Below are positions 2,883-60,325 of a DNA stretch of 60,325 nt, one piece after another. The first letter of the stretch is position 1. Each line of letters begins with the position of its first letter. The stretch lies in the NCBI RefSeq assembly GCF_015557635.1, contig NZ_JADNOP010000020.1, forward strand, positions 1-60,325. Direction: 5' to 3'. The stretch is from Fusicatenibacter saccharivorans. Lineage in GTDB: Bacteria; Bacillota; Clostridia; Lachnospirales; Lachnospiraceae. The notes beneath the pieces were generated by a model that saw nothing but the letters and a program-made list of their open reading frames with translations, did not search any database and was not told the origin of the DNA. Made by a program: the position numbers and the translations under genes.

Positions 2883-2921
2883 TGCCCTTGGACAAAAGAA
2901 GAAATCTATAGGGGCATTTTT
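2883..2921 (+). terminator. Terminator-like hairpin in the leader
   Basis: TGCCCTT (2883-2889) pairs with AGGGGCA (2910-2916) with one mismatch and is followed directly by TTTTT. It may end the exporter transcript, or attenuate the transcript beginning near 2877. Confidence 0.5.
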
Positions 2922-2933
2922 AACATCAGTAGA

Positions 2934-3097
2934 CAAGAAGTCCCCCGCTTCTAAAGCGGTGGGATGAATTGTTAAAAGAAACATAACGGTAGTGGCGGGC
3001 GGAGAGAAATCGGTATCCTCCACTGACATGAGGTAAGTCACAGTCGAACTATTTTCGACATGTCAGACTCCGTGAAAATACCGACTGTGAGTTGAAA
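2934..3097 (+). mobile_element. IS200/IS605-derived non-coding element with omega-RNA-like fold
   Basis: Positions 2934-2971 hold a hairpin (CCGCTT-CTA-AAGCGG, 2945-2959, extended by CCC/GGG around a bulged T). Its flanks, CAAGAAG on the left and GATGAATTG on the right, match the left end of the IS200/IS605 element at 59.75 kb. The next 120 bases have no ORF but strong RNA pairing. CTGACATG (3023-3030) pairs with CATGTCAG (3059-3066). TCACAGTCG (3038-3046) pairs with CGACTGTGA (3082-3090). The two helices cross, so they form a pseudoknot. This suggests an internally deleted element that keeps a left end and a TnpB-type guide-RNA scaffold (right end). Boundaries are approximate. Confidence 0.6.
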
Positions 3098-3157
3098 CAA
3101 GGAAAAAAGAAGAGAAGTAAGTAAAGTGCAGACACAGAACTATGAGGAGCAAAAAAT

Positions 3158-5581
3158 ATGAAGTTTGAAGATGATGATTTAAAGGACGGTAAACTTTGGG
3201 CTGCCCTGCAAAAAGAGATTGACCGTGACCTGGCGGAAAAGGAGAGCGGTGAAACATTCCAGGAAGAACTGGCAGACATCGAAGACTCCATTGAATTTGA
3301 AAGCAAAGAAACAAAAAGCGAAGATCACATCCCGGATGAGACTGCAAATTTAAGTAATCTGCGAAGTGTCCTTGAGGCAACTGAGCGTGCAAAAGACGAA
3401 GAAGCGAAGCAGAAAATGAAGCAGACCAAAGTGGAGCCTGTGACGCAGGACATCGAGATTCCGGAATTTACAGAAGAGGAAGAAGAAATCGAAGAGACGC
3501 CGGCGGAGACAAAAACAGAATCGGAACCGGAAGAAGTGATGGTGGATGATGATCTGATCATCAACGATCCATTCGCAGATGAGGATGATCTGCTGGGAGA
3601 AGAGAAGACAGAGACCAAGGGTTCGGAGAAAGAAGTGCTTGGTGATCAGGTGGAAGCCGCAATGGAGCGCCTCGTCAGCGACACGGTAGGCCATATCCCA
3701 ATGCCGGAAATAGACGATGAGGATGATGACTACGACGATTATGAGGATGACGACGAAGAGTACATTCCGCATGGCGCAAAACCGCAGAAGAAAAAGGGAA
3801 AAGGCGGTGCGGTTATCGCCGTTGCAGCCGTTGCTGTTATTGCTGTGGGAGGCTTTTTCTATGGAAGCAAAATGTTCCATTACCAGAATTATTTTTTCAA
3901 CGGAACAACCATCAACGGAGTAGACTGCTCGGATATGACGGCCAAAGAGGCAGAAACGAAAATCAAAGAGCAGGCTGCAAACTATACCTTAAATGTAAAA
4001 TTCAAAGACAATGATACGAAGAGTGTCAGCGGAAAAGACATCGACTACACCTACGCCGGAGACGGCAGCGTGGAGAGCGTGTTAAAGAAACAGAACAGTT
4101 TCCTCTGGTTCCTGGGAAATGGCGGAAAAGAGAAAGATTCCCAGGTCACCATGCAGTACAGTCAGGAAAAACTGGATGCGGTGATTGATGGATTTGACGA
4201 ATTCCAGTCCGCAGACGGTGAGAATGCACCGGCCAGCGCCTACATCACCTTCCAGAACAATGAGTTTGAGATTGTGGATGCTGTTATGGGTGAGGGAATG
4301 GATCTTACCCTTGCAAAACAGTGCATCGAAAACGCGCTGATCAATGCGGATACCGAAGTGGATCTTGAAAAAGCAGGCGTTTACGACGGAACCTTGGTAA
4401 CAGCAGATGACGAAACACTGAATGCACAGAAGGATCAGTTAAATGAACTGGTACGCGCAAGTATCACATACAGTATGCCGGATGGAACAACACAGGTTCT
4501 TGACGGAAATACCATGAAAGACTGGCTGGCGGTCGATGCGGATGGAAATTATTCCAAAGATGAAAACCAGTGGAATGAAAAAGTAAAAGAATATGTGGCA
4601 AATCTTGCGGCAGCGATTGATACCGATGGCAAGGATCACACCTTCCCGGCAACCGGTATCGAAGGCGGCGTGACCATCAGCCAGGAAGGCTACGGATGGA
4701 AAGTGGATCAGGAGCAGGAGATAGCAAAGATCGCAGAAGAAGTAGATGCTCACGCAGCAGACGCAAGAGAGCCGCAGTATGCGCAGAGAGAGTTTGCTGC
4801 TTCCACAGAGAACAACGGATTCGGCAAGACGTATGTTGAGGTTGATGCCAGCCGTCAGCATATCTGGCTCTACAAAGATGGAAATCTGGTTGTCGACGGT
4901 GACTGTGTAACCGGTCTGATGGAGCAGAGCAGCTACACGAAGCCGGGTATCTACACAACCGCAGCAAAAGAAAGCCAGAAAAAACTGCACGGAGAGCTTC
5001 AGGCAGACGGCAGCTATTCCTGGGAAAGAGATGTGGATTCCTGGATTCCGTTCAACGGAGAGATTGGTTTCTACGATGCTTCCTGGAGAAGTAGTTTCGG
5101 CGGAAACCTGTATCTGACTGCAGGATCGACGACAGGATCTGTTGCACTTCCGACTGCAGTGGCACAGGCATTATATGACAATGTCGATGACGGAACACCG
5201 GTTATCATTTATTATTCCGAAGCTTATGAGGTAAGTGAAGACACGCTTACTGTGACACAGGCACCGGAAGCAGATGACGAAAATGTCGATGATACGACGA
5301 ATACCACGACAGTAACGCCGACGAGAACGCCATCCTACACGTACGATGATTACACGCCGTCAACTCCGTCAACCCCATCAACTCCATCAACCCCATCAAC
5401 TCCATCGACCCCGTCTACGCCGGAACCGACCACAGCACCGACCGAGATCCCGTCTACGCCGGAGCCGACCGTAGCACCGACGGAGACCCCGTCCACACCG
5501 GAACCGACCCAGGAGCCGAGCGCACCGGATCAGGGAGACCATACGGGTGACGATGATTACCCAGGTAAGGGCGAGAGCTGA
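3158..5581 (+). CDS. Membrane-anchored PG-binding/L,D-transpeptidase-like protein, catalytic site lost
   Basis: An 807-residue protein. Residues 1-205 are very acidic and cytoplasmic. A membrane segment follows at about 212-232 (AVIAVAAVAVIAVGGFFYG), then PG_binding_4-type repeats (about 240-545), a YkuD-like domain (about 548-690) and a Thr/Pro-rich tail with STP repeats. YkuD enzymes cross-link peptidoglycan through a Cys in a SHGC motif and a nearby His. Here the expected His in the IGxHD stretch is Tyr639 (IGFYDASW), and the SHGC block reads GSTTGSVALP (656-665), with Ser661 where the Cys should be. The DNA codons confirm this. It is probably a non-catalytic wall-binding or scaffold protein. 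The RBS is ATGAGGAGC before ATG. Confidence 0.85.
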   Translation: MKFEDDDLKDGKLWAALQKEIDRDLAEKESGETFQEELADIEDSIEFESKETKSEDHIPDETANLSNLRSVLEATERAKDEEAKQKMKQTKVEPVTQDIEIPEFTEEEEEIEETPAETKTESEPEEVMVDDDLIINDPFADEDDLLGEEKTETKGSEKEVLGDQVEAAMERLVSDTVGHIPMPEIDDEDDDYDDYEDDDEEYIPHGAKPQKKKGKGGAVIAVAAVAVIAVGGFFYGSKMFHYQNYFFNGTTINGVDCSDMTAKEAETKIKEQAANYTLNVKFKDNDTKSVSGKDIDYTYAGDGSVESVLKKQNSFLWFLGNGGKEKDSQVTMQYSQEKLDAVIDGFDEFQSADGENAPASAYITFQNNEFEIVDAVMGEGMDLTLAKQCIENALINADTEVDLEKAGVYDGTLVTADDETLNAQKDQLNELVRASITYSMPDGTTQVLDGNTMKDWLAVDADGNYSKDENQWNEKVKEYVANLAAAIDTDGKDHTFPATGIEGGVTISQEGYGWKVDQEQEIAKIAEEVDAHAADAREPQYAQREFAASTENNGFGKTYVEVDASRQHIWLYKDGNLVVDGDCVTGLMEQSSYTKPGIYTTAAKESQKKLHGELQADGSYSWERDVDSWIPFNGEIGFYDASWRSSFGGNLYLTAGSTTGSVALPTAVAQALYDNVDDGTPVIIYYSEAYEVSEDTLTVTQAPEADDENVDDTTNTTTVTPTRTPSYTYDDYTPSTPSTPSTPSTPSTPSTPSTPEPTTAPTEIPSTPEPTVAPTETPSTPEPTQEPSAPDQGDHTGDDDYPGKGES
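5359..5421 (+). repeat. Nine-base tandem repeat coding for Ser-Thr-Pro
   Basis: About seven copies of a TCAACYCCR-type unit encode consecutive STP triplets in the C-terminal tail of the cell-wall protein. Such repeats are prone to length change by slippage. Confidence 0.8.
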
Positions 5582-12066: not shown

Positions 12067-12335
12067 AACGGAAACAGAAAAAGGCTTGGAACGGAAAAAG
12101 TAGAAAATCAGAATTGTTTCACAGAGAATGGCAGACAAATGGGGCTGGAAGCTGCCTGAAACGAGGGTTTTTGAAGTGCGTCCGGAAGCTGGCCGGGTGA
12201 AGCGGAAAAAGTGGGTAGTCCGGCACGGGTCCTGCACGTTATGCAGAAGAAAAGAAGAGGGCAGGTGTGCCCTTAAAGTAAAGTGGAACCACGGAGCTAT
12301 TTCGTCTTTATCGGAGATGAAACAGCTCCGTTTTT
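12067..12335 (+). promoter_or_regulatory. T-box leader, probably cysteine-specific
   Basis: AGAGA opens stem I, with the GGCAG/CTGCC apical hairpin. GAAGTGCG follows, with TGC (12177-12179) as the likely Cys specifier. The T-box core reads AAAGTGGAACCACGG (12280-12294). A terminator follows: CGGAGCT (12292-12298) pairs with AGCTCCG (12324-12330), then TTTTT. Uncharged tRNA-Cys would stabilise the antiterminator and allow cysE expression. GTG (Val) overlaps the specifier reading, but the cysE context favours Cys. Confidence 0.88.
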
Positions 12336-36802: not shown

Positions 36803-37140
36803 AATTTAAGAAAAAACAAAACCTAAAATGCAGTGACAGGGAGGAGTACCTGGCGGCGCAAAGCAAAGAGAGGAGATGGCTGGTGAGAATCTCCGTGAGC
36901 GTGCCTGCGGAAGTAGCCCTCGAGCAGTGGACTGAACAGAAAAAGCGGACAGCAATGTTTTCCAAGTAGGCTCCAACGTAGTTCCCACGTTACCGGGATG
37001 CCGTATCGGATGAAAAAAGTTAAATCCTGTACGGAATGAGCAGAAGTGTATTCTTCTGGAATTCAGGTGGTACCGTGGATGGAAACATTCTCCCTGAACG
37101 TAAGGCACAGAAAAGGTGTTTTATGTTCGGGGATTTTTTA
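36803..37140 (+). promoter_or_regulatory. T-box leader for branched-chain amino acid synthesis
   Basis: Stem I shows AGAGAG with the apical GGAGAT...ATCTCC hairpin. GGAAGTAGCCC follows, where GTA (36913-36915) is the best Val specifier candidate. The T-box core is AGGTGGTACCGTGGA (37065-37079). A terminator follows: TCCCTGAAC (37091-37099) pairs with GTTCGGGGA (37125-37133), then a T run. The specifier assignment is less certain than the T-box itself. Confidence 0.92.
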
Positions 37141-59722: not shown

Positions 59723-59804
59723 GCGTTAGAGAATAAAATTTATCCTCTTCCAGCAAGAAGACTCCGACCTCTAAGGTGAGAGATGAATTGCGTCCGTTAT
59801 CTTC

Positions 59805-59870: not shown

Positions 59871-60284
59871 ATGGATTTGGATAATAATGCACATTCAGTG
59901 TTTTTACTGCACTATCATCTTGTTCTTGTGGTTAAGTACCGCAGACAGGTTTTTGATGACGCAATTTCCGGCAGGGCAAAAGAGATCTTTGCGTATATTG
60001 CTCCAAATTACAATATCACCCTTGAAGAATGGAATCACGATAAAGACCATGTGCATATACTTTTCAAGGCCCACCCCAATACGGAAATAAGCAAGTTCAT
60101 AAACGCATATAAAAGTGCAAGCAGCAGACTTTTGAAAAAAGAATTCCCGCAGATAAAGAAAAAGCTGTGGAAAGAACATTTCTGGAGTCAGAGTTTTTGC
60201 CTGCTTACAACGGGCGGTGCCCCGATTGAAGTAATCCAAAAATACATCGAAAGTCAGGGACAAACGGATCGAAAAAGGAAGTGA
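59871..60284 (+). CDS. tnpA: IS200/IS605 transposase TnpA (Y1, HUH)
   Basis: A 137-residue single-strand transposase. The HUH motif is in KDHVHILF, and the single catalytic Tyr is in EVIQKYIESQG near the C-terminus. It acts as a dimer on hairpins at the element ends. It appears intact. AGAAAGGGGGTCGAAATACA lies before the ATG. tnpB follows after five bases. Confidence 0.95.
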   Translation: MDLDNNAHSVFLLHYHLVLVVKYRRQVFDDAISGRAKEIFAYIAPNYNITLEEWNHDKDHVHILFKAHPNTEISKFINAYKSASSRLLKKEFPQIKKKLWKEHFWSQSFCLLTTGGAPIEVIQKYIESQGQTDRKRK

Positions 60285-60289
60285 CCAAC

Positions 60290-60325
60290 ATGGCAAACAA
60301 AGCATATAAATTCAGAATATACCCC
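60290..60325 (+). CDS. tnpB: TnpB, N-terminal start only (partial)
   Basis: The last twelve codons of the window read MANKAYKFRIYP, the characteristic start of IS605-type TnpB, an RNA-guided nuclease. AAAAGGAAGTGACC precedes the ATG. The rest lies beyond the window, so completeness is unknown. Confidence 0.88.
   Translation, partial: MANKAYKFRIYP

Follow-up and report, generated by a model that had tools for sequence, protein, structure and literature searches.

A MITE-like, IS200/IS605-related element of the Lachnospiraceae with a covarying structured RNA at its 3' end and a possible guide-like role

The window analysed here is a 60,325-nucleotide stretch of Fusicatenibacter saccharivorans DNA, and its positions 2919-3098 hold a protein-free mobile element of ~175 nt, preceded by TTTAAC. 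At its left end the element resembles autonomous IS605 elements; it occurs in multiple copies between unrelated flanks, and occupies a locus that is element-free elsewhere. A first interpretation made from the letters of the window alone (hereafter the sequence-only reading) had described it as a protein-free derivative of IS200/IS605 elements, a placement borne out by its left end, its further copies and the element-free loci of sister genomes. From these comparisons, the best reading is that the element is MITE/PATE-like, with a right end matched to no parent element. Its 3' module is, as modelled on the aligned copies, a structured RNA that covaries and stops at the border to host DNA, and a guide-RNA-like working of this RNA appears plausible.

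The explanation towards which we lean, with slightly more confidence than doubt, is that of a MITE/PATE-like Lachnospiraceae element that is moved by TnpA and carries a structured RNA under selection, its guide-like transcript being bound by a putative protein. This explanation overlaps with those of the alternatives considered below that name a protein partner. The remainder of the element beyond its left end can fold into a conserved RNA with compensatory changes, made up of a hairpin (P1), a helix enclosing the 3' end and possibly a loop pseudoknot. The explanation proposes that a Y1 TnpA acting in trans would recognise TTTAAC and the left hairpin and move a single strand, and that co-directional transcription would yield an RNA composed of this scaffold and the adjacent host sequence. 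Selection would then act on the RNA because, like an omega RNA, it would be bound by a protein of the host or the transposon.

An IS605-like left end on a protein-free element

The left target or cleavage motif TTTAAC, which would be a TAM under a TnpB reading, occupies positions 2919-2924 (forward strand, as for all window coordinates of the element, the IS605 element and the neighbouring genes given below), and the element copy itself extends from 2925 to 3098. Of 79 aligned rows, 52 have the terminal TTGAAAC, and in 50 of these it is followed by AA, which leaves an uncertainty of 2 bases in the right border; the 3' end, earlier placed at 3097, is actually at 3098 (or 3100). No open reading frame of at least 80 aa lies inside 2919-3098, in agreement with the earlier statement that the element holds no transposase or TnpB frame, and its right part is overlapped by two antisense mechanical ORFs.

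The IS200/IS605-like left-end hairpin (2940-2965) was delimited by folding and by comparison of ends. It is flanked by CAAGAA and GATGAATTG, and both flanks recur unchanged in the IS605 element at the far end of the window, in the copy of that IS605 at the end of contig C6 and in a complete IS605 element of genome G218, upholding the match reported in the sequence-only reading. The complete G218 element also has TTTAAC on its left. In the window, the IS605 element comprises a left end with approximate limits 59754-59794, a tnpA gene for a Y1 transposase (59871-60284; PF01797, E 1.3e-45) whose product is 71% identical to the G218 TnpA, and the start of tnpB (60290-60325), cut by the contig end and assigned from the earlier note, its position and its likeness to the G218 tnpB start. 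The genome of the window (G000) has four Y1 tnpA matches. The right end of the window IS605 lies past the contig end at 60325 and was not found in the assembly. Both IS605 copies, in the window and on C6, break off at one and the same point of tnpB, so the tnpB part they share was probably left out of the assembly; contigs end within IS200/IS605-type elements at window position 60325 and at the ends of C6 and C1. Elsewhere in this genome, a 502-aa protein (L019; G000:C5, 1856-3361) lies beside a Y1 tnpA and is TnpB-like by position, without a Pfam match at E 0.001.

The right end of the G218 IS605 consists of a terminal hairpin followed by TTCAC and differs from that of the element. Because the right end of the element is unlike any IS605 right end compared, we infer its mobilisation by TnpA from the left end only. 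The closest known likeness is to palindrome-associated transposable elements (PATEs) of the IS200/IS605 family (PMC7290912; PMC3119063), which are short and protein-free, have an IS605 left hairpin and are thought to be moved by a transposase in trans (PMC7290912). The PATE-like element of Halanaerobium, however, keeps its own IS605 right end (PMC7290912), whereas the right part of the present element is a conserved structured RNA matching no IS605 right end compared.

Copies in the genome and their surroundings

A BLAST search with positions 2920-3110 located the element at 15 places in the 3.6 Mb genome. Far from being solitary, as it had first been called, it is represented there by 13 near-full copies and two fragments by this count, and the structure model likewise placed it at 13 sites. 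The near-full copies are 82-100% identical (11 at 94-100%, 2 at 82%). At their left ends TTTAAC is found in 10, TTTAAT in 1 and TTCAAC in 2, and at their right ends TTGAAAC is found in 12/13, L008 being the exception; with minus-strand copies reoriented, these ends are common to the copies and the flanks are unrelated. For copy L006, joining the flanks yields one continuous frame. Just behind the end of what we take by eye to be a dnaK-like ORF lies a 50-nt fragment from the 3' part of the element (L014; G000:C5:18683-18732).

Several copies begin, as judged by eye, at the stop codon of the upstream gene, TTTAA. Under a simple ORF rule, the upstream gene is co-directional with the element in 66/75 rows and the downstream gene in 64/78 rows; these orientation counts derive from 79 rows representing 77 places, two of them in duplicate. 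Such co-orientation speaks for the explanation we lean towards, but it may also stem from strand-specific insertion combined with stop codons within TTTAAC.

Copies also differ in completeness. P1 is missing in some, such as L109 in genome G366, and what is apparently the same site holds a full copy in G052 and a P1-less copy in G366. Copies thus decay, and no single copy need be functional. In three others (L033, G219:C52; L042, G255:C4; L116, G052) the left end and P1 are kept and the 3' part is cut off, at nearly one place near ATGAGGTC, a little upstream of an RBS-like stretch and an ATG.

Distribution among genomes

Some DNA match to the element, in part to the left end only, was present in 25 of 397 genomes of the same family, and a covariance model built from eight relatives found the element in 20 of the 397. 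Across 361 genomes of the class, the same model returned the genome of the window only; in both model surveys, at most nine or ten candidates per genome were scored, under stricter filters, which makes the copy numbers per genome lower bounds. Five of the 20 genomes (G138, G145, G153, G255 and G315) have weak hits, and 15 element genomes are left without them. The exact pattern of the 3' end was found on two contigs of Hominifimenecus microfluidus (Lachnospiraceae), where one copy, lacking the usual left hairpin, lies directly before an ORF that we take by eye to resemble a copper-type P-ATPase. From these contigs we infer that the family of the 397 genomes is the Lachnospiraceae.

Plasmids gave no match to the element, and viral contigs gave 0 matches for two exact patterns. 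Six records labelled as phage did match; carriage by phage was rejected for four of them (H1, H2, H4 and H5), which are bacterial DNA of the same species, since the entire fetched 1.2 kb aligns to loci of the own genome at 97-100%. Records H3 and H6 match in the element only. Four INPHARED entries deposited as 'Bacteriophage sp.' (MT835696, MT836632, MT835994 and MT835706) are 97-100% identical to this bacterial genome along the entire fetched stretch. One further copy (L231; MT836829.1) lies at the stop codon of what is, by eye, presumably a glutamine synthetase-like gene, a site absent among the own-genome copies compared.

A covarying RNA at the 3' end

Folding of the window copy beat that of dinucleotide-shuffled sequences (z -3.84; 0/200 shuffles). 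The two perfect crossing helices first noticed in it are indeed present: helix 1, of 8 bp, pairs 3023-3030 with 3059-3066, and helix 2, of 9 bp and situated before the junction, pairs 3038-3046 with 3082-3090. Upstream of both strands of helix 2, conservation and covariation point to the P1 hairpin (2990-3025, with 2990-2995 pairing to 3020-3025), in whose loop the strand TCGGTA (3010-3015) could form a candidate pseudoknot with TACCGA (3079-3084). Among Rfam families nothing credible was found on the window copy; a HEARO/IscB identity was rejected, this copy having no match at E up to 10, and the best Rfam match of copy L028 (suhB, E 0.013, on the opposite strand) was taken as noise.

The helices were tested on A5, a MAFFT alignment comprising 18 A-like copies, in which 93.8% of cells are paired for helix 1, 91.9% for helix 2 and 92.8% for both, and in which two pairs of helix 1 and one pair of helix 2 changed on both sides. 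For the two helices together, the observed pairing was reached by 2/500 shuffles, the covariation score by 5/500 and the number of cells changed on both sides by 10/500; measures counting pairs or types were reached by 43/500 and 135/500. At least 7 of the 8 pairs of helix 1 are kept in 19 of 23 A-like rows and in 0 of 46 other rows. Of the covariation on which the sequence-only reading had let its two helices depend, that of helix 2 thus stands family-wide, but helix 1 is limited to one sub-clade. The shuffle controls for pairing and covariation, here and in the next paragraph, ignore the relatedness of the copies.

When P1, the pseudoknot and the 3' helix were taken together (MAFFT), none of 500 shuffles reached the observed pairing, the number of cells changed on both sides or the covariation score; 32/500 reached the number of pairs changed on both sides and 456/500 the number of pair types. 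Counting unique strand combinations, the 6-bp core of helix 2 (s1-s3) was equalled by 1/5000 shuffles over the whole family, and the hairpin that competes with it (s2-s3) and P1 were each equalled by 12/5000. Part of the covariation evidence for P1 consists of pair counts taken from an alignment that had been fitted to the structure. The candidate pseudoknot is paired in 95.4% of cells on A5, and 8 rows of the G247 kind, among them one place in duplicate, have it as GCGGTA/TGCCGC; by itself it was not significant (1011/5000 shuffles, unique combinations). G-U pairs exceed A-C mismatches in s2-s3 (16 vs 5) and in P1 (21 vs 11), an excess expected if the RNA has the sequence of this strand. Conservation is highest in P1 and the 3' tail, with a pairwise identity among 15 representatives of 0.85 each, and the left hairpin stands at 0.67.

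These measurements bear on a possible, if doubtful, account in which the element is a plain MITE, its structures serving the transposase as DNA ends only and its RNA having no function. The left hairpin would be one such end and the s2-s3 hairpin the other, with TTGAAAC as the cleavage site just downstream. Such a hairpin on the right, closely followed by its cleavage site, would suit the anatomy of IS200/IS605 elements. The left end and TTTAAC are common to complete IS605 elements, copies decay as those of a plain MITE would, and the orientation bias can be explained by strand-specific insertion. Against this account, P1 lies inside the element and yet is conserved like the extreme 3' end, more so than the left hairpin, and covaries, and the excess of G-U over A-C in s2-s3 and P1 points to pairing at the RNA level.

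Possible use of the RNA as a guide scaffold

A further reading, which we regard as rather unlikely, treats the element as a mobile stand-alone guide RNA that consists of the scaffold only, each insertion capturing a new guide from the flank for use in trans by a TnpB-like nuclease or by the type I-C CRISPR machinery that its 3' end imitates. In the window copy, the anatomy of the element would assign this guide to the adjacent sequence at 3099-3120.

TnpB works with a structured RNA from the right end of its element and uses the adjacent host sequence as guide. Were the transcript an omega RNA acting in trans, an IS605 TnpB would bind it, the 3' flank would be its guide, and cutting of empty TTTAAC sites would favour retention of the element. 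We find this quite unlikely. The order of scaffold and flank speaks for it, as does the left TTTAAC, the same as in a complete IS605 element, and GTGGTTGAAACA stands just before the right hairpin at two of 42 TnpB ends (L199 and L221), a short likeness to the 3' end of the element. TnpB (PF07282) is enriched in the genomes with strong element hits (11/15 vs 119/382 others, P 0.001); with weak hits included the proportion is 11/20 (P 0.03), and both P values ignore phylogeny and genome size. One genome assembled in a single contig, G052, has at least 8 element matches and no PF07282 hit.

Other observations weigh against an omega RNA acting in trans. A TnpB C-terminal motif was found upstream of the element in 0/79 rows (77 places; upstream DNA to ~2.6 kb, sometimes much less). 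The single motif match among these rows belongs to a TnpB 1950 nt downstream, and the same motif detected 42 of 49 TnpB-type loci. Divergent TnpBs could be missed. By eye, none of the 42 TnpB ends (some duplicates; 49 loci) is like the 3' end of the element as a whole, and many of them resemble the G218 right end. A search of 55 loci, most of them with TnpB, with the structure model recovered only a known element copy at L100 and three weak matches: the 33 TnpB loci gave L100 and L208 (E 0.68), and 22 further loci gave L133 (E 0.0058) and L220 (E 0.11). The weak matches at L133, L220 and L208 were taken as noise; the L133 locus had been selected by its left end and not by TnpB. At L100 (G247:C23), the element copy is followed downstream by a TnpB element with a RAGATH-18 RNA of its own.

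Comparison with known TnpB RNAs leads to a similar division. Like the element, omega RNAs (reRNAs; PMC8612924) and RAGATH-18 RNA (PMC11061315; Rfam RF03064) are structured and terminate where host sequence begins, and the left flank of the element is a possible TAM. Unlike omega RNAs and RAGATH-18, the element has no tnpB 3' end at the copies examined and no RAGATH-18 match, and its right end differs. The covariance search that the sequence-only reading had proposed, run with the RAGATH-18 model, matched no element copy among those tested (the window copy and L028: E up to 10). This model exceeded its cut-off at 5 of 13 TnpB loci and scored the G218 end at E 0.032, and since it missed the other 8 TnpB loci the negative result weighs little. 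Of the omega-RNA-like character ascribed to the element at first, the structure is strengthened by covariation and by the other copies, but beyond the short GTGGTTGAAACA motif no likeness to an IS605 right end was found among those compared. As derivation from a tnpB 3' end was looked for and not found, we do not file the element as a TnpB omega RNA.

Resemblance to type I-C CRISPR repeats

Type I-C CRISPR repeats begin with GTC, continue with a stem and close with an 11-nt tail ending in TTGAAAC. The 3' 37 nt of the element (3062-3098 in the window) have this layout, with the stem at 3064-3066/3085-3087 and the 11-nt tail TGAGTTGAAAC at 3088-3098. A joint pattern retrieved, across 12 genomes, 20 element ends and 17 array repeats in G247, and its reversed control retrieved nothing; the pattern was drawn after both kinds had been viewed and misses the arrays of other carriers. 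Compared with 10 type I-C repeats, six of seven element types had a best score that beat all 2000 shuffles, and the seventh was matched by 3. These were 10 of the 11 array repeats of carriers, the G345 repeat, which has another tail, being omitted.

In an account that we judge improbable, these 37 nt would mimic a solitary repeat and be bound by Cas5d or the type I-C complex, either as a Racr-like decoy or to make a crRNA-like guide out of the flank. Besides the shuffle scores, this account can draw on an identical tail, TGAGTTGAAAC, in the main own element type and in the Hominifimenecus array repeat (L153), and on the presence of a type I-C system in the genome of the window. Matches to Rfam CRISPR-DR9 were found below its cut-off of 45, at 15.6 bits for copy L028 and 13.7-13.9 bits for the own array. 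Cas5d occurs in 12/20 element genomes vs 70/377 (P 9e-5, ignoring phylogeny and genome size).

The same comparisons also count against the mimic. Without the last 7 nt the scores weaken, 1 to 174 of 2000 shuffles being as good, and the G345 repeat stood outside the test. Scored against the main own element type, the repeat of the own array reaches 1.5, vs 11.5 for the best repeat on that type, and against the second own type it reaches 4.0; a match of the element to the repeat of its own host was thus sought and not found. No CRISPR-DR family matched the window copy at E up to 10. Counting strong hits only, Cas5d is present in 7/15 genomes (P 0.02, again ignoring phylogeny and genome size), with G052, among the 7, below the family cut-off, and 8 of the 20 element genomes gave no Cas5d hit. 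Because dropping the weak hits weakens the association with Cas5d and strengthens that with TnpB, we rely on neither.

Solitary CRISPR repeats that act as RNA anti-CRISPRs (Racr) resemble the element as a single unit like a type I-C repeat outside any array (PMC10651486). The element differs from Racr in being transposable and chromosomal, with a large scaffold in addition, in not being known to affect CRISPR and in a stem unlike that of the host's own repeat. Carriage by a phage or plasmid, as for a Racr-like repeat, was looked for among the records described above and not found. In the open-licence literature, neither a stand-alone or MITE-borne omega RNA nor CRISPR repeats on MITEs appeared among the matches listed, and no description of this Lachnospiraceae MITE family was among them.

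Insertion into the leader of a cell-wall gene

In the window, the element lies between a gene for a ThrE_2-type exporter subunit (2353-2799; PF12821, E 2.3e-34) and a gene for a YkuD L,D-transpeptidase (3158-5581; PF03734, E 4.9e-15; PF12229, E 3.9e-13). The latter, by its Pfam assignment, is the cell-wall gene of the sequence-only reading. A -10-like site (TATGATATACT, 2860-2870) precedes the element and is identical in sister genomes G001, G004, G005 and G006; G002 has TGTGTTATACT and G003 has TATGGTATACT in its place. The six sister genomes of the genus hold no copy of the element anywhere, and in 6/6 the exporter and L,D-transpeptidase genes are adjacent, in the same order and element-free (four loci read directly, those of G004 and G005 by tblastn). 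The element was therefore inserted, to the extent that a -10-like site can show it, into the 5' UTR of the L,D-transpeptidase gene. Its placement in this 5' UTR, already part of the sequence-only reading, agrees with its position between the -10-like site on the strand of the gene and the start codon and with the gene order in 6/6 sisters. Two ordinary T-box leaders were identified elsewhere in the window by Rfam, at 12078-12312 and 36824-37099.

That the element is a cis-regulatory, riboswitch-like leader of the cell-wall gene, as its position between promoter-like site and start codon and its two competing helices using one common strand might suggest, is highly improbable, the same leader being element-free in six sister genomes and the flanks of other copies being unrelated. 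Except for making the 5' UTR longer, the window copy is unlikely to serve the L,D-transpeptidase gene in any specific way.

Significance

If its RNA is functional, the element would be a protein-free mobile element whose transposition makes guide-like RNAs, and it might stand as an intermediate between omega RNAs and CRISPR repeats. Gut bacteria would also gain new 5'-UTR and intercistronic RNA from it. If the RNA is not functional, the element still represents a MITE family of the Lachnospiraceae whose copies can pass for regulatory leaders or for CRISPR repeats.
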